Positions 1 to 39,970 of a stretch of DNA of 44,372 nt are shown here, one piece after another (positions within the stretch are counted from its first letter, which is position 1; each line of letters opens with the position of its first letter). A program made the translations under genes and the position numbers. The DNA is from Oscillospiraceae bacterium (GTDB lineage: Bacteria; Bacillota; Clostridia; Oscillospirales; Ruminococcaceae): NCBI GenBank assembly GCA_017396665.1, contig JAFQLH010000074.1, positions 1 to 44,372 of the forward strand. Direction: 5' to 3'. The notes under the pieces were generated by a model. The model saw only the letters and a list, made by a program, of their open reading frames with translations. It was not told the DNA's origin and searched no databases.

Positions 1-862
1 AGTTTTCGAGAGCAATCTCGTCAACCTTGGACTCAGGAAGTTCAACATAGTACTTCTTACCACGGGATGTCTTAGTATCTTCAGAACCGAATTCGATTGT
101 GTACTTATCTTCAATCTTTCTGAGAACTGCGTCAACAAAGTTCATCTGAGGTGAACCCATGAAGCCTGCAACGAACTGGTTAACAGGGCTTGTGTAGAGG
201 TTCTGTGGGGAGTCAACCTGCTGAATGAAACCGTCCTTCATAACTACGATACGGTCACCCATTGTCATAGCTTCAGTCTGGTCGTGAGTTACGTAGATAA
301 ATGTTGTACCGAGCTTCTGGTGGAGCTTGGAGATCTCTGTTCTCATCTGAGCACGGAGCTTAGCATCGAGGTTGGAAAGTGGTTCGTCGAGAAGGAATAC
401 CTGTGGCTCACGAACGATAGCACGTCCGAGCGCAACTCTCTGTCTCTGACCACCGGAGAGAGCCTTTGGCTTTCTGTCGAGGAGATGAGCGATGTCGAGG
501 ATTCTAGCAGCTTCCTCAACCTTTCTAGCAATTTCGTCCTTAGGAACCTTACGGAGCTTAAGACCGAAAGCCATGTTGTCGAATACTGTCATGTGAGGAT
601 AGAGAGCGTAGTTCTGGAAAACCATTGCGATGTCTCTGTCCTTAGGAGCGATGTCGTTTACGAGTCTGTCGCCGATGTAGAGTTCACCTTCGGTGATTTC
701 TTCAAGACCTGCAATCATTCTGAGTGTAGTAGACTTACCACAACCAGAAGGACCAACGAGGATAATGAATTCCTTATCCTTAATCTCGATGTTACAATCT
801 GAAACAGCTACAACGCCGCCCGGATACTTCTTATAAATTTCTCTTAATGATACACTTGCCAT
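1..862 (-). CDS. MsmK/UgpC-type sugar ABC importer ATPase (3' end cut by window)
   Basis: This is the cytoplasmic ATPase of CUT1 carbohydrate importers, a family in which one protein often serves several permease pairs. The reverse-strand translation begins [16 protein letters not shown]. It has Walker [10 protein letters not shown], signature [15 protein letters not shown], Walker [16 protein letters not shown] and the switch histidine in [10 protein letters not shown]. About 287 codons are present; the family has roughly 370, so most of the C-terminal regulatory (TOBE) part lies off the window. The ATG at 862 follows a GGGAGGTCC ribosome site, with a sigma-A promoter at 925-953. It points away from the 4.5-18 kb ABC operon but is a plausible ATPase for that operon's CUT1 permeases. 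The family is certain; the sugar is unknown. Confidence 0.95.
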
Positions 863-4155: not shown

Positions 4156-4509
4156 GCCGTTTTGTAGGGATTTGGCAAAAATGCGGATTATAAATTTTAG
4201 AAACCGAAAAGGCAAATTTTTGCGTTAAATTGTCGCAGTTGACAAGTGGTATCGTTTCCAATTATACAAGTTGCACAAACCCCTCAAAAATTATTTTTCG
4301 TAATCGTTTTAGAAACTTGACAAAGGGGCGTAGAATTGGTATAATTATGATTAGCTTAATATGGGCATTTTGAACATTTTGCATAAAGGAAACGTTAAAA
4401 ATCGGTCAATTTGAAAGCATTTTTAACAAACGCAAGGTTTTGGTCAATATTCTCGTATTAGGTTAAAAAGATAGGCAATATGTACAAAAGCGAATCAAGA
4501 GGTACCGAT
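4156..4509 (+). promoter_or_regulatory. Two-promoter control region of the ABC operon
   Basis: This AT-rich stretch has no gene. It holds two sigma-A promoters in tandem: TTGACA (4239-4244) with TTATAC (4262-4267), and TTGACA (4317-4322) with TATAAT (4340-4345). Both have 17-bp spacers, and the second is a perfect consensus. The leader from the second promoter is about 160 nt and contains a 9-bp inverted repeat, GTTAAAAAT (4394-4402) and ATTTTTAAC (4419-4427), a possible operator or weak RNA stem. GGTCAAT occurs twice nearby (about 4404 and 4442). Strong constitutive initiation, perhaps repressed through the inverted repeat, is the simplest reading. Confidence 0.75.
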
Positions 4510-5190
4510 ATGGCAGTAATTCTTAAAGCTGATAAGATTGTCAGAGAGTTTAAAATCGGAGACGGAACAACCGTTACCGCCCTCAACAATGTGTGCGTTG
4601 ACATTGAGGAGGGACAGCTTACAATTCTCAGAGGACGCTCAGGAAGCGGAAAAACAACGCTCATAAATATCCTAGGCGCACTCGATAAGCCTACATCGGG
4701 CGAGGTCGTGTTCGACGGAAAGGACATAACCAAGCTTTCAGAGAAAAAGCGAGACGATTTAAGAAGATATAATATGGCGTTTGTCTTCCAGTCAGTCGCA
4801 CTTATCTCAAGTATGACAGCTTATGAGAATGTCGAGTTCGGGCTCAGACTTGCAAAGATTCCCGCAAGCGAAAGGGAAAAGCGTGCCAAGGAGGCTCTCG
4901 TACAGGTGGGACTCGAAAAGAGAATGCACCACAGACCGGGCGAGCTTTCAGGAGGCGAGCAGCAGAGAGTTGCTATAGCAAGGGCAATCGCCCATAAGCC
5001 TCAGATTGTGTTTGCCGACGAGCCGACAGCAGAGCTTGATACCACAACAGCTCTCCACGTTGTGAAGCTGTTCAAGGAGCTTGTTTCAAAGCAGAAGATG
5101 ACCATCATCATGACAACGCATGACCCTAGTATGATGGATATTGCCGATAAAGTATATACACTTGAGGACGGTGAGATTGTTGGAGAATAA
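4510..5190 (+). CDS. MacB/LolD-type ABC transporter ATPase
   Basis: This 226-residue cytoplasmic ATPase has Walker A GRSGSGKTT, signature LSGGEQQRVAIA, Walker B IVFADEPTAELD and switch His in TTHD. The VFQS segment and EQQRVAIARAI belong to the MacB/LolD/FtsE-like family, which normally partners FtsX-type permeases or other exporters. No FtsX-type permease is encoded nearby; the operon instead carries CUT1-type importers. The frame opens at 4480, but the ATG at 4510 has AGAGG seven bases upstream and gives the usual N-terminus, so it was chosen. Its 3' end overlaps the next ATPase gene, a sign of translational coupling and perhaps a heterodimer. Confidence 0.88.
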   Translation: MAVILKADKIVREFKIGDGTTVTALNNVCVDIEEGQLTILRGRSGSGKTTLINILGALDKPTSGEVVFDGKDITKLSEKKRDDLRRYNMAFVFQSVALISSMTAYENVEFGLRLAKIPASEREKRAKEALVQVGLEKRMHHRPGELSGGEQQRVAIARAIAHKPQIVFADEPTAELDTTTALHVVKLFKELVSKQKMTIIMTTHDPSMMDIADKVYTLEDGEIVGE

Positions 5191-6124
5191 TGAAGCAGTA
5201 GTAAAAGACGATGTTATAATTTCCTGCGACAATCTCGTTAAAATCTATAAAACAGACGAAATTGAGGTAGTCGCACTTCAGGGCCTTGACCTTGAAGTAA
5301 AGAAGGGCGAGCTTATGGCTATCGTCGGAAATTCGGGAAGCGGTAAATCAACACTGCTCAATATGCTCGGAGGACTCGATAAGCCGTCAGCAGGAAGCCT
5401 GTACATCGACGGAAGAAATCTTCTGAAGTTTAATGAGAACGACTATATCGACTATAAGAGAAATGTCGTGGGCTTCGTGTGGCAGAATAACGCACGAAAC
5501 TTAGTTCCTTACCTTACGGCTCTGCAGAACGTCGAAATGCCGATGCTCTTAAAGGGCGCTAAGGAAAAAAGAGAAAGAGCTACCTACCTTCTTAAAAAGG
5601 TCGGACTCGAAAAGAGAATGAACAGCCGACTTGACCAGATGTCAGGAGGCGAACAGCAGAGAGTCGCAATAGCAATAGCACTCGCAAATAAGCCGAAGAT
5701 ATTGCTCGCCGATGAACCGACAGGCTCTGTTGACTCGAAAACGTCAGCCGCAATCCTTGATATCTTCAAGGAGCTGAATAAATCAGAAGGCATTACAATC
5801 GTCATTGTAACCCACGACGTCAAGCTTGCAAAGCATATCGACAGAGTAGTTGCAATAAGAGACGGTAGAACAAGCTCGGAAATAATCAGAAAGCGAAGCT
5901 ACGCCGAGGATTTGAATGAGCTTGAAAACGCCGGGAATGTCCCGCAGGGACAGCAAGACGAGGAAGAAGAGATTGTCCAGGAGGAGCTCGCAGTTCTCGA
6001 CAGGTCGGGAAGAGTCCAGCTTCCGAAGGAATATCTCGATGCCCTTGGAATAAAGGGAGGCTCGAAGGTAAAGGTCGAGCTTGGAGAGGAGAAGGACCGT
6101 ATAGTTGTCTTCAAATCCGATTAG
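5171..6124 (+). CDS. MacB/LolD-type ABC ATPase with C-terminal AbrB/SpoVT-like domain
   Basis: The first ~230 residues are an ABC ATPase: Walker A GNSGSGKST, signature MSGGEQQRVAIA, Walker B LLADEPTGSVD, switch His in VTHD. A Glu/Gln-rich linker follows. The last ~45 residues read LDRSGRVQLPKEYLDALGI, then a GSKVKVEL strand, the pattern of the AbrB/MazE/SpoVT swapped-hairpin DNA-binding fold. No ATG is in frame; the start is a GTG at 5171 or a TTG at 5177 or 5180, all inside the end of the preceding gene. About 317 residues from the GTG. The fusion suggests that transporter state could feed directly into transcription, or that the fold serves only dimerisation. The exact start is uncertain. 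Confidence 0.85.
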   Translation: MRLLENNEAVVKDDVIISCDNLVKIYKTDEIEVVALQGLDLEVKKGELMAIVGNSGSGKSTLLNMLGGLDKPSAGSLYIDGRNLLKFNENDYIDYKRNVVGFVWQNNARNLVPYLTALQNVEMPMLLKGAKEKRERATYLLKKVGLEKRMNSRLDQMSGGEQQRVAIAIALANKPKILLADEPTGSVDSKTSAAILDIFKELNKSEGITIVIVTHDVKLAKHIDRVVAIRDGRTSSEIIRKRSYAEDLNELENAGNVPQGQQDEEEEIVQEELAVLDRSGRVQLPKEYLDALGIKGGSKVKVELGEEKDRIVVFKSD

Positions 6125-6192
6125 CACATAATCTTTACAATATGTTCCCATAACGAACGTTTACATAGCATAAAACAGAAAGGTGGATAAAT

Positions 6193-9114
6193 GTGAAAAC
6201 AGACAAGCTCAAGCGAATATCAGCTCTTGCCCTGTCACTTGCACTTACATTTACAATGATTCCTGCTGCATGGGCACAAGAGACAGACTTTGCCGCAGCT
6301 TCTTCCGGCACATCTGAAACAGGTAGCTGGGAAGAAAGAAACTCTATGCTTACATACGGCGAATATCTCGAGCAGCATGCCGATGCAGCACTTCCTGAAA
6401 AGGAAATCCTCATCTACGGAAAGGACTACGCTTCCAAGAGCGACGAAACACAGGCAAGCGTTATCACAGTTGACGGAAAGACAGATGTCCTCAACTGGGA
6501 AAGCCAGAACGGAGAAATTACATTTGACGTTAATGTCGAAGAGGAAGGCTTCTATAATATAGAGTTCTCCTATGAGGCCCTCTCAAGCCCTGCAAATGAA
6601 ATCGAGTTTGCACTCCTCATCGACGGAGAAGCTCCTTATGAAACAGCTTCAAGACTTACACTCAGCAAGGTGTGGGTGAACGAAACTGAAATCAAGCAGG
6701 ACTTTAACGACAACGATATAAGACCAGGTCAGGTTGAAAAGGTAATGTGGCAGAAGGCATTCCTCGAAGACGTTGACGGCCTCTATAACGGAGCCCTCGA
6801 ATTCTATTTCACAAAGGGAAGCCACACAATTACACTCGAATCTACAAAGGCAAGATTTGCAATCGAGTATATCAAGCTGTGCAGAGACAGTGTTCCACAG
6901 CCTTATGTAGCTCCTGAGGATTCAGCTCTCTCAGCTACAAACGGCGTTTCAACAATCACTCTCGAAGGCGAAAACGCTGACTACAAGAGCGACAGAACAC
7001 TCTTCCCTACATCTGACAGAACCTCTTACCTCACTTCTCCTTCCGACCCTACAAAGACTAAGTATAATACAATCGGTAAGGATAGCTGGGCTAAGGCCGG
7101 CCAGTCTGTAACATGGGAATTCCACGTTGACACAGCAGGCTATTATAAGATAGGTATCAGAGCAAGACAGAGCACAATGAGAGGCTTCTACTCAAACAGA
7201 AAGCTCTACATCGACGGTGTCTGCCCGAATACTGAATCTGAACAGCTCAAGTTCTACTACTCAACTGACTGGACTCTTACCGTTCCTAAGACAGAAGACG
7301 GCGATACAGTTTACTACTACCTCGAAGCAGGCGACCATACACTTACCCTTGAGTCAGTTCCCGGCGAAATCGGTGAGATTATGGACGAGCTCGACGGACT
7401 TGTACAGGAAATCAACAACTACTACAGAGAAATCCGCCAGATTACAGGTCCTGACCCTGACGAGTATACAGACTATAATATCGATACCATTATCCCTGAG
7501 GTAAGAAGCGACTTCGAACGCTTCAGCAAGGAGCTCAAGGCACTCCAGAAGGATGTCGATAAGCTCATGAGCAGCGGCGGTAACGAAGCTGTTACACTCA
7601 ACGAAATGGCTATCATTCTCGATAAGTGTGTAAAGGACCCTTGGAAGATTCCTACACTTATGAATCAGATTAAGGATAACGTAACAGCCCTCTCATCCTG
7701 GATGCTTACATACAGAGAACAGCCTCTCGAGCTCGACTTTGTTGAAATCGCAGCTCCTGATGAGGACTTCACAAGCGTTAAGACATCCTTCTTCGCAAGC
7801 CTTAAGTTCAACTTCCTCGCATTCATCGGCTCGTTCTTTGAGGACTACAATACACTCTCAGAAAACGAGGGCGAGGACAACACTCTCTCCTGCTGGATTA
7901 CTCTCGGACGTGACCAGGCTCAGGTTGTAAGAGCAATGATTGAAAATGACTATAACCCGAATGCTGAAACAAAGGTTGCTTTAAAGCTCGTTCAGGGCGG
8001 TATCCTTGAATCAACAATGGCGGGCAAGGGTCCGGATATAGGCTTGTTTATGGGTGGCGACTACCCGATACAGCTCGCAGCCCGTGACCTTCTCGTAGAT
8101 GTTTCACAGTTTGAAGACTATGAAGAGGTAACTACAAGATTCTCAAAGGACGCTATGACACTCTATACATATAACGACGGCGTTTATGCACTCCCTGTAC
8201 AGCAGTCCTTCCCAATGATGTTCTACCGTGACGATATCCTCTCTGAGTACGGTATCAACGGTGCAACTGATATCCAGACATGGGATGACCTCATCGGCAT
8301 CCTCCCTACACTCCAGAGAAATTACCTCGAGGTAGGTCTTATCCTTCCTGTTAATACAAGCGTAAACGGTACAACAACCGTTCCTACAACAACTGAAGCA
8401 GGTAATACATTCGCAATGCTTATGCTCCAGAACGGCCTCAACTTCTACAACGAGGACCTCACAGCTACAACATTCGATAACCAGATAGCAGTAGACGCTT
8501 TCGAAATGTGGACAGAGTTCTATACAAAGTACAGCTTCCAGCAGACCTACGACGCTATCACAAGATTCAGAACAGGCGAAATGCCGGTTCTTCTCCAGAA
8601 CTATACATTCTATAATACTCTCGCAGTAACAGCTCCTGAAATCAAGGGTGCTTGGAACTTCACTCTCGTTCCGGGTACAATGCAGGCTGACGGAACAATC
8701 AGCCACGCTTCAAACTCTGCAGGTTCAGGCGCAATCATCTTCTCATCCTGCGAAGACCACGAAGCAGCATGGGATTTCATCAAGTGGTTTACTTCAACAG
8801 AAGCTCAGGTTGAATACGCAAACGACATCGAAGCAGTACTCGGTACTCTCGGACGTTTCGATACAGCAAACGTAGAGGCACTCAAGCAGCTCTCATGGTC
8901 ACAGGCAGAGCTCGACCTCATCCTTGCACAGCTCGAGCAGCAGGTTGAAATTCCAATCATTCCGGCAACATACGGCGTTACAAGAAATATAGTAAACGCA
9001 TTCAGAGCAGTAGTTAATGACGCTGATAACGCAAGAGATACACTTATGTGGTATAACAGAGATATCAACGCAGAAATTACTCGTAAGCGTGAAGACTTAG
9101 GTCTTGATACTTAA
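6193..9114 (+). CDS. Large extracellular solute-binding protein with carbohydrate-binding-like modules
   Basis: This 973-residue exported protein starts at GTG after AAAGGTGG. Residues 1-28 are a signal peptide ending AAWA. Residues about 70-232 and 250-390 are two beta-rich modules resembling CBM6/CBM35 folds (GFYNIEFSYEA and GSHTITLES in the first; AGYYKIGIRARQ and AGDHTLTLES in the second). Residues about 390-510 are helical. From about 565 to the end is a family 1 solute-binding fold (GKGPDIGLFMGGDYPIQLAA). Usual family 1 binding proteins are about 430 residues. There is no lipobox Cys, which is unusual for a Gram-positive binding protein. It stands just before two permease genes and probably presents a glycan to them; the ligand is unknown. 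Confidence 0.9.
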   Translation: MKTDKLKRISALALSLALTFTMIPAAWAQETDFAAASSGTSETGSWEERNSMLTYGEYLEQHADAALPEKEILIYGKDYASKSDETQASVITVDGKTDVLNWESQNGEITFDVNVEEEGFYNIEFSYEALSSPANEIEFALLIDGEAPYETASRLTLSKVWVNETEIKQDFNDNDIRPGQVEKVMWQKAFLEDVDGLYNGALEFYFTKGSHTITLESTKARFAIEYIKLCRDSVPQPYVAPEDSALSATNGVSTITLEGENADYKSDRTLFPTSDRTSYLTSPSDPTKTKYNTIGKDSWAKAGQSVTWEFHVDTAGYYKIGIRARQSTMRGFYSNRKLYIDGVCPNTESEQLKFYYSTDWTLTVPKTEDGDTVYYYLEAGDHTLTLESVPGEIGEIMDELDGLVQEINNYYREIRQITGPDPDEYTDYNIDTIIPEVRSDFERFSKELKALQKDVDKLMSSGGNEAVTLNEMAIILDKCVKDPWKIPTLMNQIKDNVTALSSWMLTYREQPLELDFVEIAAPDEDFTSVKTSFFASLKFNFLAFIGSFFEDYNTLSENEGEDNTLSCWITLGRDQAQVVRAMIENDYNPNAETKVALKLVQGGILESTMAGKGPDIGLFMGGDYPIQLAARDLLVDVSQFEDYEEVTTRFSKDAMTLYTYNDGVYALPVQQSFPMMFYRDDILSEYGINGATDIQTWDDLIGILPTLQRNYLEVGLILPVNTSVNGTTTVPTTTEAGNTFAMLMLQNGLNFYNEDLTATTFDNQIAVDAFEMWTEFYTKYSFQQTYDAITRFRTGEMPVLLQNYTFYNTLAVTAPEIKGAWNFTLVPGTMQADGTISHASNSAGSGAIIFSSCEDHEAAWDFIKWFTSTEAQVEYANDIEAVLGTLGRFDTANVEALKQLSWSQAELDLILAQLEQQVEIPIIPATYGVTRNIVNAFRAVVNDADNARDTLMWYNRDINAEITRKREDLGLDT

Positions 9115-9131
9115 GAAAGGAGGGTCAGAAA

Positions 9132-10070
9132 ATGGCTGTTAAAACACAGGATGCTCCGCTCAATAAGCAGAGTAAGGGAAAATACACCTGGCATATGATG
9201 AAGACCAATAAGGCCTGCTACGCAATGCTCGCACCATTTATGATTCTCTTTATCATCTTCACGGTAATCCCTGTTGTAATTACTTTACCTTTAGCATTCA
9301 CAAACTTCAATATGGCACAGTTCCCTGAGTTTACAGGACTGTCAAACTTCTATACGCTGTTCTTAAACGACGATACATTCATGATTGCAATCCAGAATAC
9401 TCTCGTTTTCGCAGTGTTCACAGGACCGTTCAGCTATGTGCTCAGCTTTATCCTCGCTTGGCTCATCAACGAAATGCACCCTGTACTCAAAACATTCTTT
9501 ACATTCGTGTTCTATGCTCCGTCAATGACAACATCAGCTTATGTAATCTGGCAGCTTCTCCTCTCAGGTGACTCAAAGGGCTACATCAACGCTATCCTCA
9601 TTGACTTCGGAATCCTCAACTCACCTAACCAGTGGCTCACAGATACAAACTACATTCTCCCTGTTTGTATCATCGTTCAGCTCTGGATTTCAATGGGTGC
9701 AGGCTTCCTTTCACTCCGTGCCGGCTTCCAGAATATCGACAAAGCGATGTACGAAGCAGGTGCAATCGAAGGCATCAAGAACAGATGGCAGGAGCTCTTC
9801 CTTATCACAATTCCTTCAATGGGACCACAGCTCCTGTTCGCCGCAGTTCTCCAGATATCTGCATCCTTCACAGTAGGTACAGTATCTCAGAACCTCGTTG
9901 GTCTTCCATCAACAGACTATGCAGCTCATACGGTTATGAACCACGCAACCGACTACGGCTGGATAAGATACGAGATGGGCTACGCTTCGGCAATATGTCT
10001 TATACTCTTTATAGTAATGCTCCTTGCTAACTCGCTTATCAACTGGGTATTACGTAAATACGTAGATTAA
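9132..10070 (+). CDS. CUT1-type sugar ABC permease (first pair, MalF-like)
   Basis: This 312-residue integral membrane protein has about six transmembrane helices and the importer EAA loop that docks to the ATPase: EAGAIEGIKNRWQELFLITI, followed by P. It has the proline-rich first helix typical of MalF/LacF-type CUT1 permeases. It follows the binding protein by 17 bases with an AAGGAGG site, and precedes the second permease by 15 bases, so the two probably form one heterodimeric channel. The substrate cannot be read from the sequence. Confidence 0.93.
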   Translation: MAVKTQDAPLNKQSKGKYTWHMMKTNKACYAMLAPFMILFIIFTVIPVVITLPLAFTNFNMAQFPEFTGLSNFYTLFLNDDTFMIAIQNTLVFAVFTGPFSYVLSFILAWLINEMHPVLKTFFTFVFYAPSMTTSAYVIWQLLLSGDSKGYINAILIDFGILNSPNQWLTDTNYILPVCIIVQLWISMGAGFLSLRAGFQNIDKAMYEAGAIEGIKNRWQELFLITIPSMGPQLLFAAVLQISASFTVGTVSQNLVGLPSTDYAAHTVMNHATDYGWIRYEMGYASAICLILFIVMLLANSLINWVLRKYVD

Positions 10071-10085
10071 GGGGGTGACTGAAAA

Positions 10086-10988
10086 ATGGGTACAAAAAAG
10101 AAAAAGAAGAGAGTTAATATTGATACTGTCAAGGTCAGAAAGAATAATAAGAAGATAACCGCATCAAGAGGCGGAAACATCTGTATCTTCCTGTTCCTCT
10201 GCTTTACAGGTATCTTTATGATTTTCCCAATCTATTACGCCGTAGTTCAGTCATTCAAGCCGATTGAAGAGCTTTTCGTGTTCCCTCCTAAGCTCTACGT
10301 TCTCAATCCGACAACAAAGAACTATTCGGATATGATGAAGGTCGCAACTAACCTCTGGGTACCGCTTTCAAGATATATCTTCAACAGCGTGTTCGTATCC
10401 ATAGTTGTAACAGTGTGCAACGTGTTCGTTTGCTGCTGTGCAGCCTTCGTTCTCTCAAAGTGTAAATTCCCGGGCAACAAGTTCTTAAACAAGCTTATCG
10501 TAACTGCCCTTCTGTTTACATCATCAGCAACATGGATTATCCAGTTCCTCGTAATGGCAACACTCGGTATGATTGATACCTACTGGGCACTGATACTTCC
10601 AAGTATCGCAACACCTATGGGACTGTTCCTTATGAGACAGAGTATGTCAACAATCCACGACTCAATGATTGAAGCGGCTAAGGTTGACGGTGCAGGCCTG
10701 TTCAGAATATGCTGGCAGGTAGTAGTACCAAACCAGAAGCCTGCAATCATGACTCTTATCATCTTTGCGTTCCAGGACGCATGGAACAGACAGAGCGGTA
10801 CAATCATCTATTCAGAAGAGCTCAAGACTCTCCCGACAATTATGCAGCAGATTGCCGCAACAGGTATCGCACGTCAGGGTGTAACATTTGCAACTTCAGT
10901 AATACTTATGCTTCCTCCGCTTATCGTGTTCCTTGTAGCACAGAGCAACGTTATGGAAACCATGGCGAACTCAGGTATCAAGGACTAA
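10086..10988 (+). CDS. CUT1-type sugar ABC permease (first pair, MalG-like)
   Basis: This 300-residue membrane protein is the MalG-like partner of the preceding permease. It begins with a Lys-rich cytoplasmic tail (MGTKKKKKRVNIDTVK), then about six helices. The EAA loop is EAAKVDGAGLFRICWQVVVP, the canonical EAA---G pattern. A GGGGGTGA ribosome site lies just before the ATG. It forms the first of the operon's two permease pairs. Confidence 0.93.
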   Translation: MGTKKKKKRVNIDTVKVRKNNKKITASRGGNICIFLFLCFTGIFMIFPIYYAVVQSFKPIEELFVFPPKLYVLNPTTKNYSDMMKVATNLWVPLSRYIFNSVFVSIVVTVCNVFVCCCAAFVLSKCKFPGNKFLNKLIVTALLFTSSATWIIQFLVMATLGMIDTYWALILPSIATPMGLFLMRQSMSTIHDSMIEAAKVDGAGLFRICWQVVVPNQKPAIMTLIIFAFQDAWNRQSGTIIYSEELKTLPTIMQQIAATGIARQGVTFATSVILMLPPLIVFLVAQSNVMETMANSGIKD

Positions 10989-11037
10989 GCGAGAAATTTA
11001 CGTTCGATAAACGACTAGAATTTAGAAAAGGATATAG

Positions 11038-12810
11038 GTGAAAACAGTGCAAATGAAAAAAGCTTTTAAAAAGGCTGTGGCTTCGCTCCTTGCACTCTGC
11101 AGTCTGTCAACAGCAGTGCTGACAGCCTACGCAAGTGAGCCTTACGATTCATACAGCTACGATTTTTGGAATGACCCGATTCCTGCACAGGCAGCCTACA
11201 AGGTTAACGATACATATACAGGTAACAACTTAAACCGTACAAGGCTTACAGACCCTGAGGACGAATTGTTTATAAGCACAACAACAAAGACCTCACTCGC
11301 AGGTGCTAAGGATATCTACTTCGAGGAAACACTCGAAGAGTTCTGGGTTGCAGATACTCAGAATTCACGAATCTTAAGACTCGATAAGGACCTCTCACTC
11401 ATCGGCTGCTATACAGGCGTCGATAAGTCGGACAGCGGTAACACAAGCTTCAATAACCCTAACGGCGTGTTCGTTGTGGTTGAAGAAAACGGCGACGTTA
11501 TGATGTATGTCGGCGATACAGAAAACTCAAGAATTTTAAAGTGTAAGGTAACCGGCGGACTTACCTGCGAGAATATGCTCGAAATCGGTATGCCTGAATC
11601 AGCTATCTATACTTCAAAGTCGAAGACATTCCTTCCTGAAAAAATGCTCGTTGACGGCGCAGGTAATATCTACGCAGTTTGTACCTCACTTAACGCAGGT
11701 TCAGCACAGTTCAACGCAGCCGGCGAATTCCAGGGCTTCTACGGTGCAAACCGTGTAGAAGTAACAGGAGAAATCATCAGAAGACATATCTGGAGACTGT
11801 TTGCTTCGGATGAACAGCTCAAGTCAATGCAGAGTGCAGCTCCTACAGAGTATAAGAACTTCGACATCGACGACGAAGGCTTTATCTATACCTGTACAGA
11901 AGCCGCAAATACAACAACAGACGCTGTTAAGAAGCTCAACGCAGCAGGCTATAACATCTGGAATAACGACGCAGGAAACGAGTACGTTTTCGGTGATATA
12001 GTTACAGGTGGTACATGGGACGCTTCAACTAACACAACTTACTCAACAAGACTTACAGACCTCGATATCGACGAGTACGGATTTATCAATATCCTCGACT
12101 ACGCAACAGGTAGAGTGTTCGTGTACGACGAGTTCTGCAGCCTCGTTACAATCTTCGGTACAAAGAGCAGTACCTCCGACCAGAAGGGAAGCTTCAACGG
12201 ACCGAATGCAGTAGAAAGTGCCTTTGGCAACATCTACATCGTTGACGGTATCAAGAACGATATCACAGTATATTCAACAACTCTCTACGGCTCATACCTC
12301 AAGCAGGCAGTACTCCTCTACGACGACGGTAGATACGTTGACGCAGAGCCATACTGGCAGGAGGTTTTAAACCGTAACGGTACCTGCTCATTCGCACTCC
12401 TCGGTCTCGGTAAGGCAGCACTCAATAAGGGCGACTATAAGCTCGCTATGGAGTATTTCGAGGATTGCTACGCTCAGACGAGCTACGACAGAGCATTCAA
12501 GTACTATCGTGAGCAGTGGCTCCAGGATAACTTCGTATTCGTGTTCCTCGCAATCGTTCTCCTCTTTGTTCTCGGAATTACATACTCCATTCTCAAGAAG
12601 AAGGGTATAATCAAGAAGAGAGAAAGGAAGGTAAAGAAGAAGGCTCCGGAACGTAAGAAGACAAAGAAGGAGCTCGAGCACGAGGCAGAGCTTGCAGCTC
12701 AGGCAGAAGCCGAAGCAAAGGCACAGGCAGAGGCTGAGGCACAGGCAGAAGCACAGGCAGAAGCACAGGCACAGCCTGAGGAAAAGTCTGAAGAAAAGGA
12801 GGAAGAATAA
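11038..12810 (+). CDS. Exported NHL beta-propeller/TPR protein with membrane anchor
   Basis: The 590-residue product starts at GTG with AAAGG six bases upstream; its MKT opening echoes that of the solute-binding protein. Residues 1-33 are a signal peptide ending YAS. Residues about 75-415 hold repeated NHL-type blades (DIYFEETLEEFWVADTQNSR, NPNGVFVVVEENGDVMMYVG and later copies). Residues about 419-490 resemble two TPR units (AVLLYDDGRYVDAEPYWQEV; ALNKGDYKLAMEYFEDCY). One transmembrane helix at about 498-520 is followed by a Lys-rich stretch and a long Ala/Gln/Glu tail. The propeller and TPRs should be outside and the charged tail inside. It may be a scaffold or sensor for the transporter; no enzyme motif was seen. 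Confidence 0.85.
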   Translation: MKTVQMKKAFKKAVASLLALCSLSTAVLTAYASEPYDSYSYDFWNDPIPAQAAYKVNDTYTGNNLNRTRLTDPEDELFISTTTKTSLAGAKDIYFEETLEEFWVADTQNSRILRLDKDLSLIGCYTGVDKSDSGNTSFNNPNGVFVVVEENGDVMMYVGDTENSRILKCKVTGGLTCENMLEIGMPESAIYTSKSKTFLPEKMLVDGAGNIYAVCTSLNAGSAQFNAAGEFQGFYGANRVEVTGEIIRRHIWRLFASDEQLKSMQSAAPTEYKNFDIDDEGFIYTCTEAANTTTDAVKKLNAAGYNIWNNDAGNEYVFGDIVTGGTWDASTNTTYSTRLTDLDIDEYGFINILDYATGRVFVYDEFCSLVTIFGTKSSTSDQKGSFNGPNAVESAFGNIYIVDGIKNDITVYSTTLYGSYLKQAVLLYDDGRYVDAEPYWQEVLNRNGTCSFALLGLGKAALNKGDYKLAMEYFEDCYAQTSYDRAFKYYREQWLQDNFVFVFLAIVLLFVLGITYSILKKKGIIKKRERKVKKKAPERKKTKKELEHEAELAAQAEAEAKAQAEAEAQAEAQAEAQAQPEEKSEEKEEE

Positions 12811-12811
12811 T

Positions 12812-13441
12812 ATGTATGAATTTACCCCGATGGGTTGGCTCAAGCACTGTATCTTCCACCCGATTGAAGGCTTTGAAGACCTCAGATGGAAAAAGCAGGG
12901 CTCAATGAAAATAGCTCTTTGGATAGTCTTCTTCCTGTTTGTTGCAATGGTTGCAAACAGACAGCTCGTAGGCTTCCAGTTCAACCAGGCTTACACAAAG
13001 GTGTTCAACGTAGTCCCACTTCTCGTGCAGAGCGTTGTATACTTCTTTACATGGGTAATTGCAAACTGGTCTGTATGTACTCTTCTCGACGGAGAAGGCA
13101 GACTCAAGCAGATTTGTATCAACTCTGCTTATTCACTCGTTCCGTATATAGTAAGTGTGTTCCTTACAGTTTTCCTCTCAAACTTCATGGTTCTCGATGA
13201 GATAATCTGGCTGAGCGCAATAAGCTATCTCGGACTCGGCTGGTCAGTTATCCTTATGTTCCAGGCAATGAAGGCAGTTCATCAGTATTCGGTTCTTAAG
13301 ACAATTGCATCAATTGTTCTCACACTCGCTGCAATGCTTATCATACTCTTCCTGATGATTCTCCTTCTCTCACTCTTCCAGCAGGTTTATGTATTCTTCT
13401 ATTCAATCTATACTGAAGTATCGTATAGAATTCGTGGTTAA
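12812..13441 (+). CDS. Yip1-family membrane protein
   Basis: This 209-residue protein has five predicted transmembrane helices and opens MYEFTPMGWLKHCIFHPIEG, a start typical of bacterial Yip1-domain proteins. The frame is open further upstream, but the ATG at 12812 has AAGGAGG eight bases ahead and starts immediately after the NHL gene stop, so it was chosen. It sits between two exported proteins of the ABC operon and is presumably a membrane component of the same machinery. No catalytic motif is visible. Confidence 0.85.
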   Translation: MYEFTPMGWLKHCIFHPIEGFEDLRWKKQGSMKIALWIVFFLFVAMVANRQLVGFQFNQAYTKVFNVVPLLVQSVVYFFTWVIANWSVCTLLDGEGRLKQICINSAYSLVPYIVSVFLTVFLSNFMVLDEIIWLSAISYLGLGWSVILMFQAMKAVHQYSVLKTIASIVLTLAAMLIILFLMILLLSLFQQVYVFFYSIYTEVSYRIRG

Positions 13442-13456
13442 AGGATGGTGGTATAA

Positions 13457-15952
13457 ATGCAGAATAAGAAATGGAAAAAGATTCTCGTGTTTGCACTTGT
13501 ACTCACTATGCTGACACCTGCAAGCACAATCTTCGCAAGCTCAACAGATGACGACGCTGCTCTCGCAACAGCAGATACATCAGACGAGCAGACTGATGAT
13601 ACAGGCGAAGACGAAGATGACGACGACGATAAGGGTAAGGACGAAGTCCTTCCACCTAAGAAAACTGACGAGGAAGCCCTCGAGTTCTGCGAAAATGTAG
13701 CAGAAAACGACAACTTCATCCTCTACTTCGATTCAGGCGAACGTGAAGAAGAGGAAAAGACTGAAGACGAGGAAGCTTCTGAGGAAGAAGAAAGCGGCAG
13801 CAAGAAGAAAAAGGACGAAGCTGAAGAAGTCAATGTCGCAAGATTCGGACTCTACGTTAAGTCCACAGGCAAGATTTGGTGGTCAAACCCTGTCAATGCC
13901 TTCGCTGACGATACAATCATCGACCCTGTAAAGGGAAGAACAATGCGTGAAACACAGAGATTACAGGTTGCTTCAAACGTAATCCTGACATACGCAGACC
14001 TCAGACAGGAAAAGCGTACAACAAAGGCTCTGTATTCCGCTGACGACGCAACAGAAAAGTTCAAGACAATCAAAGACGGCGTTGAAATTACCTATAACTT
14101 CAGAAGTGCCGGTATCACAGTTCCTGTACAGTATGTCCTCGAAGAAGACGGACTCAAGGTTTCAGTTGATACTGCCGATATCAAGGAAAAGAACACAAGC
14201 GCTGAAGACGGTAAGGTAGTTACAAATATCGCCCTTACACCACAGTTCGGTGCAGCTCCTGCAACTGACCTCGACGGAAACAAGGTAGAGGGCTATATGA
14301 TTATCCCTGACGGCTCAGGTGCTGTTATCAACTACAATAACGGAAAGAGCGACTACAACGTGTATAACCAGAAGCTCTACGGCAGAGATTATACAGCAGT
14401 TCCTCTTAACGCTCCTAAGGTGACCGACCAGGCTCACCTCCCACTCCTCGCAACAGTAAACGGCAAGGACGGCCTCGTTGCTATCGCAACAGCAGGTGAT
14501 GCAAACGCAAACGCTATTGCTCAGGTTTCAGGACAGAATAACCAGTCCTATAACACTTGCTACTTCCAGTTCGAGCTGCGTAGTTCTGATACATACTATA
14601 TGAGCGGTGACTCAGGTAATAAGCTCGTCGTTTTCGAAAAGGGCGACATCGCAACCCCTGAAATCGCTGTTAAGTATACTCCTGTAACTGACGAAGAAGG
14701 CGTTAACTACGCTGACGTCGCAGGCGTGTTCAGAGATTATCTCGTTGACAACGGACTTACAGCTTCAACTGAAGAGAATAAGTACAACTTCTACCTCGAT
14801 ATCTACGGCGGTGTAGTAAAGCAGAAGTCTATCCTCGGTCTCCCGTTTGACCTCAAGACTTCTATGACATCCTTCGAGGAAGCTAAGAAGATTCTCGAGC
14901 AGTTTGACGAAAACGGCGTTGAAGACGTTGTCCTCGCTTATAACGACTGGACAAACAAGCTCATCAAGGACAATATCTCAACAAAGTATAAGCCTTCCGG
15001 CACACTCGGCGGCAAGGGCGATTTCGAAGACCTCCAGAGCTATGTGGATAAAATCGGCGCTGAGATGTATCCTACAATGGATAACCTCACAATGAACAGC
15101 TCAACATGGGGCTACTGGACTCTTACAAATACCGCTATCAGAGTTTCAAACGCTTATTCAAGACAGTCTTCATACAGCATCGCATTCGGTGTTGAGGACA
15201 AGGGCGTTTCACCTGCTCTGCTTACACCAAATGCATACGGCAAGGTGTTTGACGAAATCATCGAAAGCTTTAAGGATAACGACCAGAACACAGTTTCCTT
15301 CGGCGATTATTCAACAGCTCTCGTTTCTGACTTCATCAAGAGAGAAAAGTCAGTAAGATACCAGTCAATGAATACCATTATCAACGGTTATGAGGACGCA
15401 ACAAACGGCGGCCTCGACAAGATTCTCTGTGACGGAGCAAACTCGTATGTTATCGAGTACGCTTCACATATCACAGATGTACCACTCTATTCAAGCGGAT
15501 ACAATATCACAGACTACGATATCCCACTCTACCAGATGGTAGTTCACGGCTATGTTCCTTATTCATCAGTTGCCCTCAATAAGACATCTGATGTACAGGA
15601 AGCATTCCTCCTCTCAATCGCCTACGGCGCAGGTCTCCACTACGATATGATTTACGAAAAGACCGCAGAGGTTCAGGATACCGAGTACAATGACCTGTAT
15701 TACGCACACTACGACGCTTGGGTTGATACAGCTTCTGAACAGAACAAGGTTGCTCACAGCATTCTCGCTCCGCTGAGCACAATGACTATCTCAGACTTTA
15801 AGCGTGACGACAGAGTTCTTACAACAACATACAGTGCAGAAGGAAAGTCCGATGTAGTTGTAGTTGTAGACCTCGACAACGCAACCGTTACAGTTGACGG
15901 AGTAAGCGTTGATATTTCCAATACTATAATGACAGGAGGTTTGATGGGCTAA
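13457..15952 (+). CDS. Exported DUF5696-family protein with long acidic linker
   Basis: This 831-residue protein has a signal peptide (residues 1-27, ending IFAS) and then about 95 residues dominated by Asp, Glu and Lys. The folded part from about residue 125 to the end resembles DUF5696; signposts are MIIPDGSGAVINYNNGKSDY, NKLYGRDY-type and ADVAGVFRDYLVDNGL. Function is not established to my knowledge. Size and aromatic-rich segments (STWGYWTLTN) would suit a glycan-acting barrel, but I saw no assignable catalytic residues. Its stop overlaps the next permease start by one base, so it is translationally coupled to the second permease pair and probably handles the same substrate. Confidence 0.82.
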   Translation: MQNKKWKKILVFALVLTMLTPASTIFASSTDDDAALATADTSDEQTDDTGEDEDDDDDKGKDEVLPPKKTDEEALEFCENVAENDNFILYFDSGEREEEEKTEDEEASEEEESGSKKKKDEAEEVNVARFGLYVKSTGKIWWSNPVNAFADDTIIDPVKGRTMRETQRLQVASNVILTYADLRQEKRTTKALYSADDATEKFKTIKDGVEITYNFRSAGITVPVQYVLEEDGLKVSVDTADIKEKNTSAEDGKVVTNIALTPQFGAAPATDLDGNKVEGYMIIPDGSGAVINYNNGKSDYNVYNQKLYGRDYTAVPLNAPKVTDQAHLPLLATVNGKDGLVAIATAGDANANAIAQVSGQNNQSYNTCYFQFELRSSDTYYMSGDSGNKLVVFEKGDIATPEIAVKYTPVTDEEGVNYADVAGVFRDYLVDNGLTASTEENKYNFYLDIYGGVVKQKSILGLPFDLKTSMTSFEEAKKILEQFDENGVEDVVLAYNDWTNKLIKDNISTKYKPSGTLGGKGDFEDLQSYVDKIGAEMYPTMDNLTMNSSTWGYWTLTNTAIRVSNAYSRQSSYSIAFGVEDKGVSPALLTPNAYGKVFDEIIESFKDNDQNTVSFGDYSTALVSDFIKREKSVRYQSMNTIINGYEDATNGGLDKILCDGANSYVIEYASHITDVPLYSSGYNITDYDIPLYQMVVHGYVPYSSVALNKTSDVQEAFLLSIAYGAGLHYDMIYEKTAEVQDTEYNDLYYAHYDAWVDTASEQNKVAHSILAPLSTMTISDFKRDDRVLTTTYSAEGKSDVVVVVDLDNATVTVDGVSVDISNTIMTGGLMG

Positions 15953-17001
15953 TGAGCGAAATTGTAAAAGATATTGATAACGCTGTTTCTGAAGAAGTAA
16001 TCGAAGAAGTAGCAGAAAACGCTCAGGAGCAGGCAGAAGCTGCTATCGAAGAAACAGCAAAGCCGAAAAAGGCTTCCAAGCCTCCTAAGCAGAAGGGTAT
16101 GAAAATACCTTACGAAAGAAGAAAGGCACTCTATGGCTACGGCTTTATTGCACTGTGGCTCTTAGGCTCAATCTACTTCTTTATGATGCCTGTAATCGAG
16201 TCGATAATCTATTCGTTCTGCGATACGATTCCGGCTCCTGACCAGGGCGGTATGTCACTCGACTTCGTAGGACTCAAGAACTATAAGAACGCTCTTACAG
16301 TTCACCCTACATACCCGATAGCTCTCCCTGAGGTTCTGGGAGATACACTCCTCAAGACTCCGCTTATTCTCGTGTTCTCAATCTTTATTGCGATTATCTT
16401 AAACCAGAAGTTCAAGGGCCGTACAGTTGCAAGAGCAATCTTCTTCCTTCCGGTTATCATCGCAACAGGTCCTGTTATCGACATCATCAACGGTAATATG
16501 GACTCAGCAGGAACAAACGGCGGAAGCGAGCAGTTCAACTCTCTGTTTGAAACAGACCTCGTCGGCGACCTCCTCACATTCCTCGGAATCTATGGAATAA
16601 GCGATAAGCTTACCGAAATCATCAACACACTCACAAGTGATATCTTTAACCTCGTATGGAACTCAGGTATCCAGATTCTCCTCTTCCTCTCTGCTCTGCA
16701 GACAATTCCTTTCTCAGCAAAGGAAGCAGCTCAGATGGAAGGCGCAACCTCATGGGAATACTTCTGGAAGATTACACTTCCATATATCAGCCCTATGATT
16801 GTAGCGAGCCTCGTATACACAATCGTTGACTCGTTCGTTGACCCTGAAAACCAAGTAATGAAGATAGTGCTCGGTATGGGTAAGAACTGGGAGTTCGGTT
16901 ATCAGGCGGCTATGCTGTGGCTATACTTTATCATAGTCGCGGTGGCGCTGGGAATAGTTATTGCGATAGTGAATAAATTCGTTTATTACGAAGTAGGATA
17001 A
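15952..17001 (+). CDS. CUT1-type sugar ABC permease (second pair, MalF-like)
   Basis: The 349-residue product carries an unusual ~55-residue N-terminal cytoplasmic extension, first Glu/Ala-rich and then Lys/Pro-rich, before the first helix (YGYGFIALWLLGSIYFFMMP). The EAA loop is KEAAQMEGATSWEYFWKITL. The loop between helices 2 and 3 is longer than usual. It starts at the overlapping TAATG of the DUF5696 gene. It pairs with the next permease to make the operon's second channel. Confidence 0.93.
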   Translation: MSEIVKDIDNAVSEEVIEEVAENAQEQAEAAIEETAKPKKASKPPKQKGMKIPYERRKALYGYGFIALWLLGSIYFFMMPVIESIIYSFCDTIPAPDQGGMSLDFVGLKNYKNALTVHPTYPIALPEVLGDTLLKTPLILVFSIFIAIILNQKFKGRTVARAIFFLPVIIATGPVIDIINGNMDSAGTNGGSEQFNSLFETDLVGDLLTFLGIYGISDKLTEIINTLTSDIFNLVWNSGIQILLFLSALQTIPFSAKEAAQMEGATSWEYFWKITLPYISPMIVASLVYTIVDSFVDPENQVMKIVLGMGKNWEFGYQAAMLWLYFIIVAVALGIVIAIVNKFVYYEVG

Positions 17002-17015
17002 GGGGGGATTACATA

Positions 17016-18065
17016 ATGGCAACTAAAAGAGAAGAGCGTCTATTTGAAAAAGAGATGCAAAAGATACGTAAGGCAAGATACGAAAAGATGAAGGCCGAGG
17101 GTATCGAAAATTATCTGACCCCTGAACAGATTCGTTATAACAAGAACAAGAAAATTATCGGAGCTGTCTGGCCGATATTCAGATTCTTAATCATTTTTGG
17201 TCTGGGCTTTGTAATCCTCTATCCGATTATCTTTATGCTGTCAACAGCATTCAGACCTTACGAGCAGATGAATGACCCGTCAATCATCTGGCTCCCTAAG
17301 TCATTCACCCTCCAGAATATGCAGGAAACCTTCGATATCATGAGCTTTGATACAACGGTTCTCAATACCGTAAGACTCAACCTCATCGCATCTGTATTAC
17401 AGGTTATCACATGTTCTATCACAGGCTATGGCTTCGCAAGATTCAACTTCAAGGGAAAGAGCATTCTGTTCGGTATCGTAATCGCAATGATTCTCGTACC
17501 GCCACAGATTATCACAATCCCTATGTATCTGCAGTATGCGTTCTTCGACCTTTTCGGACTTATTCCACTTTTCAACGGCGGAGAAACAATTACTCTTATC
17601 AACTCAGGCTGGACAATGTATCTGCCTGCAATGTTCGCAAACGGTATCCGTGCAGGTCTGTTTATCCTCATCTTCCGTCAGTTCTTCAGAGGACTGCCTA
17701 AGGAACTCGAGGACGCAGCTTACCTCGACGGTTGCGGACCATTCAAGACCTACATCAAGGTTATGGTTCCTAACGCTAAGACTTCATTCCTTACCGTATT
17801 CCTTTTCTCAATCGTATGGTACTGGAACGACTACTATGTATCATCCTCATTCTTTACAAGAAACGATACAGTAGCCCTCATGCTCAAGAACCTCGACTCA
17901 GAGCTTACTTCAAGACTCTTCAACAACCAGACTCCAGGTATCCGTGCTATGATTGTATGGCTCGAATCCGGCTGTCTCCTGACAATTGCTCCAATCCTTA
18001 TCATGTATATCTTCTTACAGAGATACTTCATCGAAGGTATCGAGCGTTCAGGTCTCGTAGGTTAA
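17016..18065 (+). CDS. CUT1-type sugar ABC permease (second pair, MalG-like)
   Basis: This 349-residue membrane protein begins with a ~55-residue charged segment (MATKREERLFEKEMQKIRKA) and then about six helices. The EAA-like loop is EDAAYLDGCGPFKTYIKVMV, followed by P; the first Ala of EAA is Asp here. An AGGGGGG site precedes the ATG. It is the last gene of the operon and ends 10 bases before a strong terminator. The charged tails of this pair could contact the charged tail of the NHL protein, but that is only a guess. Confidence 0.93.
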   Translation: MATKREERLFEKEMQKIRKARYEKMKAEGIENYLTPEQIRYNKNKKIIGAVWPIFRFLIIFGLGFVILYPIIFMLSTAFRPYEQMNDPSIIWLPKSFTLQNMQETFDIMSFDTTVLNTVRLNLIASVLQVITCSITGYGFARFNFKGKSILFGIVIAMILVPPQIITIPMYLQYAFFDLFGLIPLFNGGETITLINSGWTMYLPAMFANGIRAGLFILIFRQFFRGLPKELEDAAYLDGCGPFKTYIKVMVPNAKTSFLTVFLFSIVWYWNDYYVSSSFFTRNDTVALMLKNLDSELTSRLFNNQTPGIRAMIVWLESGCLLTIAPILIMYIFLQRYFIEGIERSGLVG

Positions 18066-18074
18066 CCAAAAATC

Positions 18075-18108
18075 AAAAGTGCTTCCGACAAAATCGGAGG
18101 CACTTTTT
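18075..18108 (+). terminator. Terminator of the ABC operon
   Basis: AAAAGTGCTTCCGA (18075-18088) pairs with TCGGAGGCACTTTT (18094-18107), with one wobble, around a 5-nt loop, followed by T residues. The next promoter begins two bases later at 18110. Confidence 0.9.
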
Positions 18109-18109
18109 G

Positions 18110-18138
18110 TTGACGAAAATATAAATGTCTGCTATAAT
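18110..18138 (+). promoter_or_regulatory. Sigma-A promoter of the MORN gene
   Basis: The -35 TTGACG (18110-18115) and -10 TATAAT (18133-18138) have a 17-bp spacer. The predicted leader is only about 25 nt. Confidence 0.8.
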
Positions 18139-18169
18139 TTATTTGTATTTTCAAAGAGAGGGAAGCGTT

Positions 18170-19267
18170 ATGGATAACAACTACTACAGCGATAACGACT
18201 ATAATACATATGCCGAGCTTGCGGAGGTAACGCAGGACGACAAGTTTACGGGAATGGGCGTCTGCAACTACCCGACAGGCCATAAGTATGAGGGAAAATT
18301 CAGAAGAGGCAAGCGTCACGGTATGGGTACAATGTGGTACCCCGACGGCAGTATCTATAAGGGTCAGTGGAAGAACAACAAGCTCCACGGCAAGGGCGAG
18401 CTGCTTTTTGCAAACGGCGAAAGACACGTCGGAAGTTACAAGAACGGCAAAATCTCCGGGAAGGGCAGCTACTATTACCCGAAGGGAATCACCTACGAGG
18501 GTGACTATAAAAACGGCAAGCGTGGCGGCTATGGCGTCTTGTCGTACACAAACGGCTCGTGGTACAAGGGCTACTGGAAGGACGATAAAAAACACGGCAA
18601 GGGCGAAGAGTGGTATGCCGCTGATAATATTTCCTATAAGGGCGGATATGCCCTCGGCAAGCGTGAAGGCTACGGCGTTATGAAATGGAAAGACGGCTCG
18701 TGGTATAAGGGCAACTGGGTCAGCGACTGCAAGAGCGGACAGGCAGAAGAGTTCTACGCATCAAGCGGAATAACCTACAAGGGCGGCTTCCTCTTTGACA
18801 AAAGAGAAGGCAAGGGCGAAATGAAATGGCCAAACGGCAACAGATACGTCGGAAATTTCAGCGAAGGAAAAATGCACGGCGAGGGAGTGCTGTATTATGC
18901 CGACGGCAAGGTGTTCCGTGGTATTTATAAGGACGGAGAAGCCTTCGACGGCATCTATAAGACCAAGGACAAAAACGGCAAGTGGGTTGAAAATCGATTC
19001 AAAAAAGAGACCCAGCCCGTGATTCAGCAGGCCGCTGTGAATAAAAGCGGAAAGGCTACAGTGTGGCTGAGGTCTTATCCGTATGAACATAAAATGGCTG
19101 CAATAAAGCTGCTGCGAGAGTTTACAGGCTTTGGACTCAAGGAGGCTAAGGATATCGTAGAGGCAGCCCCGGGCGTCGTTATCCGAAACGTCGACGGACA
19201 GTGGGCAAGAGCCCAGCTCGATGCACAGTGCAAAAAGCTCGGCATCGTCTATGAAATAACCGAATAG
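18170..19267 (+). CDS. MORN-repeat protein with L7/L12-like C-terminal domain
   Basis: The 365-residue product has no signal peptide and is probably cytoplasmic. Residues about 25-265 are roughly ten or eleven MORN repeats of ~23 residues (YEGKFRRGKRHGMGTMWYPD, YKGQWKNNKLHGKGELLF and so on). Residues about 293-365 resemble the C-terminal domain of ribosomal protein L7/L12: VWLRSYPYEHKMAAIKLLRE, then FTGFGLKEAKDIVEAAPGVV. In L7/L12 this domain recruits translation factors. The combination is unusual and its role is unknown. The ATG at 18170 follows GAGAGGGAAG; an upstream in-frame start lies inside the promoter and was rejected. Confidence 0.88.
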   Translation: MDNNYYSDNDYNTYAELAEVTQDDKFTGMGVCNYPTGHKYEGKFRRGKRHGMGTMWYPDGSIYKGQWKNNKLHGKGELLFANGERHVGSYKNGKISGKGSYYYPKGITYEGDYKNGKRGGYGVLSYTNGSWYKGYWKDDKKHGKGEEWYAADNISYKGGYALGKREGYGVMKWKDGSWYKGNWVSDCKSGQAEEFYASSGITYKGGFLFDKREGKGEMKWPNGNRYVGNFSEGKMHGEGVLYYADGKVFRGIYKDGEAFDGIYKTKDKNGKWVENRFKKETQPVIQQAAVNKSGKATVWLRSYPYEHKMAAIKLLREFTGFGLKEAKDIVEAAPGVVIRNVDGQWARAQLDAQCKKLGIVYEITE

Positions 19268-31477: not shown

Positions 31478-31483
31478 TAAGGT

Positions 31484-31557
31484 GCAGTCATTATTGCTGA
31501 CGGTATGTGAATTGACACAGTGCGGTAGTGATTGATATTTTGCCGACCGTCTGGGCA
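31484..31557 (+). ncRNA. ZTP riboswitch (pfl motif)
   Basis: This leader matches the pfl RNA class that binds ZTP/ZMP (AICAR ribotides, which accumulate when 10-formyl-tetrahydrofolate is short). It has the 5' element CTGACGG (31497-31503), a GTGAATTGACAC hairpin, and the diagnostic 3' element GCCGACCGTCTGGGC (31542-31556). GACGGT (31499-31504) can pair with ACCGTC (31546-31551), the expected pseudoknot. Its last bases overlap the 5' arm of a terminator, so ligand binding should allow transcription of pflB and raise formate supply. Confidence 0.92.
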
Positions 31558-31582
31558 GTCCTTGACTAAGGACTGCCTTTTT
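31554..31582 (+). terminator. Riboswitch expression-platform terminator before pflB
   Basis: GGCAGTCCTT (31554-31563) and AAGGACTGCC (31568-31577) form a perfect 10-bp stem with a 4-nt loop, then TTTTT. The 5' arm shares GGCA with the aptamer's conserved CTGGGCA, so aptamer folding and termination are mutually exclusive. Confidence 0.92.
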
Positions 31583-39714: not shown

Positions 39715-39757
39715 CTCATCATACAATATAATAGTAAGTAGTGTTGATATCGTATCC

Positions 39758-39959
39758 GATAGCACTCCATCACATTGTATGATGACAATCACAGCCCTGT
39801 TAAGACTGCAATCAGCCTGAGCGTCACCCATAACGTCTCAGACTTCGGCAGCATCGCCTTTTGCGGTACAAGTCACACAGGGTAATGCTTCACGCTGTCC
39901 GATGCAAAAGCTGTCAGACGGCGGTTGTGACCGCTACTATTCTTTGCTGCGCCTCTATC
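39758..39959 (-). ncRNA. Lysine riboswitch (L box)
   Basis: On the minus strand the leader shows the L-box core in order: GATAGAGGCGCAGC, AATAGTAG, AAAGGCGATGCTGCCGAAG, CAGGCTGATTGCAGTC, then CTGTGATTGTCATC. The closing stem P1 is GATAG (39959-39955) with CTATC (39762-39758). The ~200-nt length is normal for the class. Lysine binding should favour the terminator at 39693-39714 and shut down asd, dapA and dapB. CATCATACAAT in the aptamer's 3' part can also pair with ATTGTATGATG next to the terminator (39716-39727 with 39774-39785), a likely alternative fold. Confidence 0.87.
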
Positions 39960-39970
39960 TGTTTAGATAT

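Follow-up and report, generated by a model that had tools for sequence, protein, structure and literature searches.

We analyzed a 44,372-nt stretch of DNA (hereafter, the window) from an Oscillospiraceae bacterium (GenBank assembly GCA_017396665.1, contig JAFQLH010000074.1), in which ten plus-strand open reading frames (ORFs) in the 4239..18108 region, separated by short gaps or overlapping, form an apparent single unit. This operon consists of an eight-gene import cassette with a pair of LolD/MacB-type ATP-binding cassette (ABC) ATPases, A1 and A2, in front (Table 1). It very probably joins two systems, namely an oligosaccharide importer powered by the shared ATPase MsmK, and the ATPase pair of a MacAB-like exporter that has been split from its own permease. 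In this model, a large glycan-binding receptor would deliver oligosaccharides to two CUT1 permease pairs, with MsmK supplying the power, while two conserved extracytoplasmic accessories would assist, NHL/TPR-Yip1 probably as a scaffold and the GH129-like DUF5696 protein probably in glycan binding or trimming. The A1-A2 pair would belong to an exporter encoded in part elsewhere, at an ATPase-free locus that holds the genes for its adaptor and FtsX permease; the pair probably came to stand ahead of the cassette through a single relocation, in an ancestor of two genera of the family, and would most likely continue to act with that permease in trans. Gene content, linkage, co-occurrence and tree grouping are observations, whereas the coupling partners, the substrate and the accessory roles are inferences. 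The surprise of the operon is thus largely resolved into two known kinds of transporter sharing one operon in one bacterial family. An apparent exception to the rule that MacB/LolD ATPases pair with FtsX-fold permeases is thereby removed, and the case cautions against assigning ABC ATPases from operon membership alone. The analysis further defines a widespread importer cassette; its two conserved accessories, NHL-Yip1 and DUF5696, are the part deserving experiments and could be tested in a genetically tractable laboratory organism.

The ATPase Pair Accompanies an FtsX-Type Permease

Below, family and order refer to the lineage of the window (Ruminococcaceae and Oscillospirales), and G000 is its own genome. 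The best NCBIfam match of both ATPases is LolD (218.4 and 241.4 bits, below the cut-off of 307.75), and their catalytic motifs are intact, the Walker-B of A1 reading IVFADEPT. The MazE/AbrB domain of A2 (PF04014) occupies residues 270-306 of the stretch from 5192 (window 5999-6109, plus strand). These matches bear out an earlier interpretation made from the letters alone (the sequence-only reading), which had described two MacB/LolD-type ATPases, one of them AbrB-tailed.

Across 117 genomes of the order, full-length A2 orthologs were found in 19, the window's included, the next match falling from 338 to 202 bits. An FtsX permease, searched with the 932-amino-acid FtsX-domain protein of locus L124 (one genome outside the family), was present in 19/19 genomes with A2 but in only 1/98 without it (G472; P = 6e-21, Fisher test), whereas DUF5696 showed no association with A2 (9/19 vs. 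52/98; P = 0.80); as the test treats related genomes as independent, it overstates certainty, although the difference between the two associations is large. These searches left out G513, G561 and G582, the last a family genome with a weak DUF5696 match only (1.8e-12). Two genomes from a third genus of the family (G441 and G473) are without full-length A2, FtsX permease and DUF5696 alike.

The gene neighborhoods point the same way. In other families, A1-A2 directly follow the FtsX permease in 13/13 loci that reach A1; a 14th A2 locus (L118) ends inside the A2 region, and the FtsX permease of its genome lies on another contig. None of these 14 loci matched a cassette gene. A HlyD-like adaptor precedes the permease in all six genomes with a sufficient stretch (L121, L127, L129, L154, L155 and L156), and the exporter-linked A2 orthologs match the query up to residue 297 or beyond, so that most of the MazE/AbrB tail is kept. 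The sequence-only reading had proposed one machine in which the ATPases drive the CUT1 pairs, and had named the gene neighborhood as its refuting test. Because A1-A2 occur elsewhere without these permeases, behind an FtsX permease, and are found in 0/39 cassette stretches outside the family (see below), that proposal is unsupported.

The operon itself holds no FtsX-type gene, as had been noticed from the letters; the ortholog lies on contig C42 of G000 (39% identical over its length), together with a HlyD-family adaptor. Among the family genomes searched, the nine with a strong DUF5696 match likewise have an FtsX permease; in each it is accompanied by an adaptor, with neither A1 nor A2 in the stretch read, and the ABC matches at these loci were limited to weak ones (48-50 bits) in L150 and L151, encoded on the opposite strand. 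In eight of these nine genomes A1-A2 were seen ahead of the cassette; for the ninth, G527, the FtsX-adaptor locus and DUF5696 were seen, its A1-A2 and cassette lying outside the loci compared. The system thus resembles MacAB/LolCDE-type exporters (HlyD-like adaptor, FtsX-fold permease and MacB/LolD ATPase) in the type of its ATPases, but differs in having two separate ATPases, one with an AbrB tail, and, in the window's family, in placing permease and ATPases at different loci. In a tree of A2, the cassette-linked sequences form one group, which makes a single relocation of A1-A2 the simplest history.

At one exporter locus outside the family (L117, 4230-5543, plus strand), a YpeB-type protein is encoded directly downstream of the ATPase pair, and similar-looking ORFs were seen by eye in L116 and L118; a link of the L117 exporter to spore or cell-wall functions is possible.

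A Widespread Import Cassette

The cassette encodes, in order, a large substrate-binding protein (SBP) with a carbohydrate-binding module, the permeases P1-P2, an NHL/TPR protein, a Yip1 protein, a DUF5696 protein and the permeases P3-P4. The domain matches agree with the sequence-only reading for the 973-residue binding protein, whose SBP_bac_8 domain scores 2.9e-26 and whose PDB profile matches are sugar-binding proteins, and for the NHL/TPR, Yip1 and DUF5696 proteins. They agree also for the two permease pairs, in which the EAA-loop glycine is conserved in every aligned sequence (P1 and P2, 39/39 each; P3, 48/48; P4, 47/47). All permease matches to UgpA/UgpE/PotB/GlcT/GlcU-type models are below cut-off; P1 matched nothing in Pfam at 0.01, and P3 fell below the Pfam cut-off, so that their CUT1 class rests on the NCBIfam matches together with the EAA loops.

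Searching for the DUF5696 family in 398 genomes of the phylum gave 43 above the cut-off, and forty stretches around matches were compared with the window proteins, with more loci from the window's family added afterwards. The cassette counts refer to nine family loci besides the window and to 39 stretches outside the family (31 genomes), hand-picked among the DUF5696 matches; some of the latter end at contig ends or chosen borders (L045 and L055 begin inside the SBP) and were retained, and genes were called contiguous if no other matched gene lay between them on the same strand. The core of NHL, Yip1 (or a fusion of both), DUF5696 and P3 occurs in this order in 38/39 stretches outside the family, the single exception, L050, being cut by a contig end. 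NHL and Yip1 are fused in one ORF in 23/39; SBP-P1-P2 stand together, upstream or downstream of the core, in 29/39; and the complete eight-gene run is found in 21/39. This conserved core beside the pairs lends some support to the suggestion of the sequence-only reading that the two CUT1 pairs work together. In contrast, A1-A2 lie beside the cassette in 9/9 family loci, as in the window, but in none of the 39 stretches outside the family.

The family loci also differ in their binding proteins. A second SBP near the core was counted in 28/39 stretches outside the family vs. 0/9 family loci, by hand from the rows of a screen with one profile for binding proteins of up to 700 amino acids on the same strand; L048 has an extra SBP-like ORF (matched by the window SBP query only), L053 has one on the opposite strand, and the hit in L056 is weak (28 bits). 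The second permease pair of the family is therefore without a nearby binding-protein gene of its own. G000 has seven SBP matches in total, the cassette's own included. Among the best 25 of 126 families matched by flanking ORFs of the cassette stretches (100/185 scanned) are SBP_bac_1 (6), LacI regulators (5), GH3 (3), melibiase/GH27-type (3), GH43 (3), GH42 (2), GH26 (2) and alginate lyase (2). These flanks point to carbohydrate use but to no single substrate.

In the literature searched, with background drawn from PMC8579813, PMC12285236, PMC5698469, PMC8106489, PMC10492685, PMC11212667 and PMC12710961, we found no report on DUF5696, none combining Yip1, NHL, permease and binding protein, and no function for NHL-Yip1 or DUF5696.

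MsmK as the Likely Energizer, and the Xylan Locus of Caldicellulosiruptor bescii

The closest described counterpart that we recognized is the xylan degradation locus (XDL) of Caldicellulosiruptor (Anaerocellum) bescii, whose order is given in PMC8579813 as xloEFG-X-GH129-axoFGE followed by further xyn genes, with predicted control by XynR and AraR and raised expression on xylan. One of our stretches, L070, contains the published XDL operator unaltered, some 150 bp upstream of the SBP ORF; of 132 loci searched it is the only one with such an exact copy. The gene order of L070 (SBP-P1-P2, an NHL/Yip1 fusion, DUF5696, P3-P4 and a 601-amino-acid binding protein) matches the published one. Because of the exact operator and the matching order, we take L070 to be this locus. 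It shares with the window the large SBP, two permeases, NHL/TPR-Yip1, DUF5696 and two further permeases, and both are without a CUT1 ATPase of their own. At L070, NHL is fused to Yip1 in a single protein and the 601-amino-acid second SBP follows, whereas in the window NHL and Yip1 are separate, no second SBP stands alongside, and A1-A2 are added.

The CUT1 transporters of C. bescii are without their own ATPases and have been attributed to a shared MsmK, deletion of which severely impaired growth on cellobiose, cellulose, xylan and pectin, but not on glucose or xylose (PMC8579813). All nine family genomes searched whose DUF5696 match is strong have an MsmK gene (16/17 genomes searched overall), and the window carries one at its edge. 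By analogy with C. bescii, MsmK is the likely energizer of the window's permease pairs. The alternative that the sequence-only reading had itself offered, with MsmK driving import and A1-A2 otherwise employed, is thus the one that gains support.

The DUF5696 Protein Is Remotely GH129-Like

A profile of 28 DUF5696 proteins matched 5opq (6.9e-15), the 3,6-anhydro-D-galactosidase ZGAL_3152, and the GH129 enzyme NagBb (5wzn; 7.7e-07), the likeness lying for the most part in the N-terminal part and the first portion of the barrel. ZGAL_3152 has been called GH129-like and proposed to stand outside GH129, since its catalytic residues differ (PMC5698469). None of the acidic residues (Asp or Glu) is shared by all 28 proteins: conservation is highest for Asp311 and Asp625 (25/28 each), followed by Asp285 (24/28) and Asp686 (23/28), and a Glu found in 20/28 is an Ala in the window protein. 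Within the aligned stretch, three NagBb residues read Ala in 5wzq, presumably a mutant entry: 320 and 322 of the chain and a His farther along. None of the three has a conserved equivalent among 27 DUF5696 proteins, and a role as proven glycosidase was set aside on this ground. The region of the catalytic Asp435 of NagBb (numbering of PMC5698469) lies outside the alignments of the profile searches. The DUF5696 protein could be an enzyme of altered mechanism or a binding protein.

A bolder version, which we regard as unlikely, sees the cassette as a double-barrelled importer: NHL/TPR-Yip1 would hold the receptor and both CUT1 pairs, and DUF5696, with a GH129 fold but no conserved catalytic pair, would have taken on the task of glycan receptor for the second permease pair, replacing the second SBP that is absent beside the family cassettes.

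Weighing the Alternatives

That A1-A2 were recruited as dedicated CUT1 ATPases, and now drive import while the distant FtsX permease uses another ATPase or shares them, would fit their place in one operon with the cassette in the window and in all nine family loci compared. The C-terminal domain of MalK is a dimerizing domain, and the A2 tail could dimerize in the same manner. However, the nine family genomes searched that match DUF5696 strongly all have MsmK, A2 tracks the FtsX permease rather than DUF5696, and the FtsX loci of the family have no such ATPase in the stretches read. Nor is the permease-facing helical subdomain, located between the Q-loop and the signature motif, more divergent in A1 and A2 than expected: compared with exporter-linked orthologs, and at matched identity of the remaining sequence, it gives 0.615 vs. 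0.621 for A1 and 0.578 vs. 0.531 for A2, the yardstick being the exporter-linked orthologs among themselves. We consider recruitment quite unlikely. Still less credible, and indeed highly improbable, is a single envelope complex of A1-A2, both CUT1 pairs and the accessories handling a large glycan. The ten genes do form one apparent unit and the cassette itself is strongly conserved, but the cassettes outside the family do without A1-A2, the 14 other-family A2 loci do without the cassette, and in three genomes (G416, G430 and G503) A1-A2 and the cassette are on different contigs.

A neutral rearrangement, in which the placement of A1-A2 and their co-transcription with the cassette have no function, is a tentative possibility and forms a sub-case overlapping the preferred model of two joined systems. 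One event would suffice for the observed distribution, and the nonamer found at the operon (see below) precedes the adaptor in only one of nine genomes, yet the linkage persists in two genera. The same persistence is among the points that weigh against the model of two joined systems: A1-A2 stand ahead of the cassette in all nine family loci and the window, a long conservation for an accident. The support for the cassette-linked group in the A2 tree (94/92) is just below the tool's bar of 95/80, and the root of that tree is a midpoint. Finally, C. bescii is distant and none of the genes looked at next to the window operon encodes a carbohydrate enzyme, so that the link to xylan may not carry over to the window.

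Operon Layout and Neighboring Features

The order, borders and spacing of the ten genes are as the sequence-only reading had described them, and so is a terminator behind them, a strong one, which was detected by its folding energy and missed by a simple scan. We infer a single transcript from this layout. Of the tandem promoters that had been proposed in front, one strong promoter stands, conserved in all six sequences aligned (the window and five near relatives); a tandem arrangement is not established, as the neighboring candidates at 4308 and 4423 match at 9/12 positions each and an 11/12 match at 4598 falls within A1. A sigma-70 scan of the whole 19.5 kb gave 47 sites vs. 28.4 expected in shuffles.

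Table 1. Features of the operon, with the MsmK gene at the window edge
Feature	Position	Strand	Evidence and remarks
MsmK-type shared CUT1 ATPase	2..862 (cut by window end)	-	Likely energizer of both permease pairs, by analogy with C. bescii
Sigma-70 promoter	4317..4345	+	TTGACA-17-TATAAT, TG extension before -10, 12/12 match
A1, LolD/MacB-type ABC ATPase	4510..5190 (start may be 4480)	+	PF00005 3.9e-35; best NCBIfam match LolD
A2, LolD/MacB-type ABC ATPase with C-terminal MazE/AbrB domain	5141..6124 (start uncertain)	+	PF00005, PF04014
SBP, 973 amino acids, XloE position	6193..9114	+	CBM35-like N-terminal part (CBM_35) and SBP_bac_8
P1, CUT1 permease, XloF position	9132..10070	+	PotB/GlcT/UgpA-type NCBIfam matches, EAA loop
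P2, CUT1 permease, UgpE-like, XloG position	10086..10988	+	Pfam/NCBIfam matches, EAA loop
NHL/TPR protein	11038..12810	+	N-terminal hydrophobic stretch (signal), one transmembrane segment near residue 500
Yip1-domain membrane protein	12812..13441	+	PF04893 7.2e-15
DUF5696 protein, N-terminal signal-like stretch, remote GH129-like	13457..15952	+	PF18952 3.4e-154, 515 bits
P3, CUT1 permease, AxoF position	15952..17001	+	UgpA-type NCBIfam match, EAA loop
P4, CUT1 permease, AxoG position	17016..18065	+	Pfam/NCBIfam matches, EAA loop
Intrinsic terminator	18075..18107 (approx.)	+	Fold -21.1 kcal/mol, z -5.28

Direct copies of TTGCAYAAA at 4271-4279 and 4379-4387 (plus strand) flank the operon promoter, and L032 and L033 have copies at similar positions; the pair is a possible operator candidate, and two copies in the window are not rare (27/100 shuffles). 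Shared regulation of the operon and the adaptor-FtsX locus was rejected, TTGCAYAAA standing before the adaptor in just 1/9 genomes.

Just past the terminator, a plus-strand ORF (18125-19267) encodes MORN repeats (PF02493) and a C-terminal ribosomal L7/L12-like domain (PF00542), with an 11/12 promoter match before it at 18110-18138. Farther along, the window contains a ZMP/ZTP riboswitch aptamer (31483-31563, plus strand; 44.1 bits) and a lysine riboswitch aptamer (39752-39965, minus strand; 87.6 bits).

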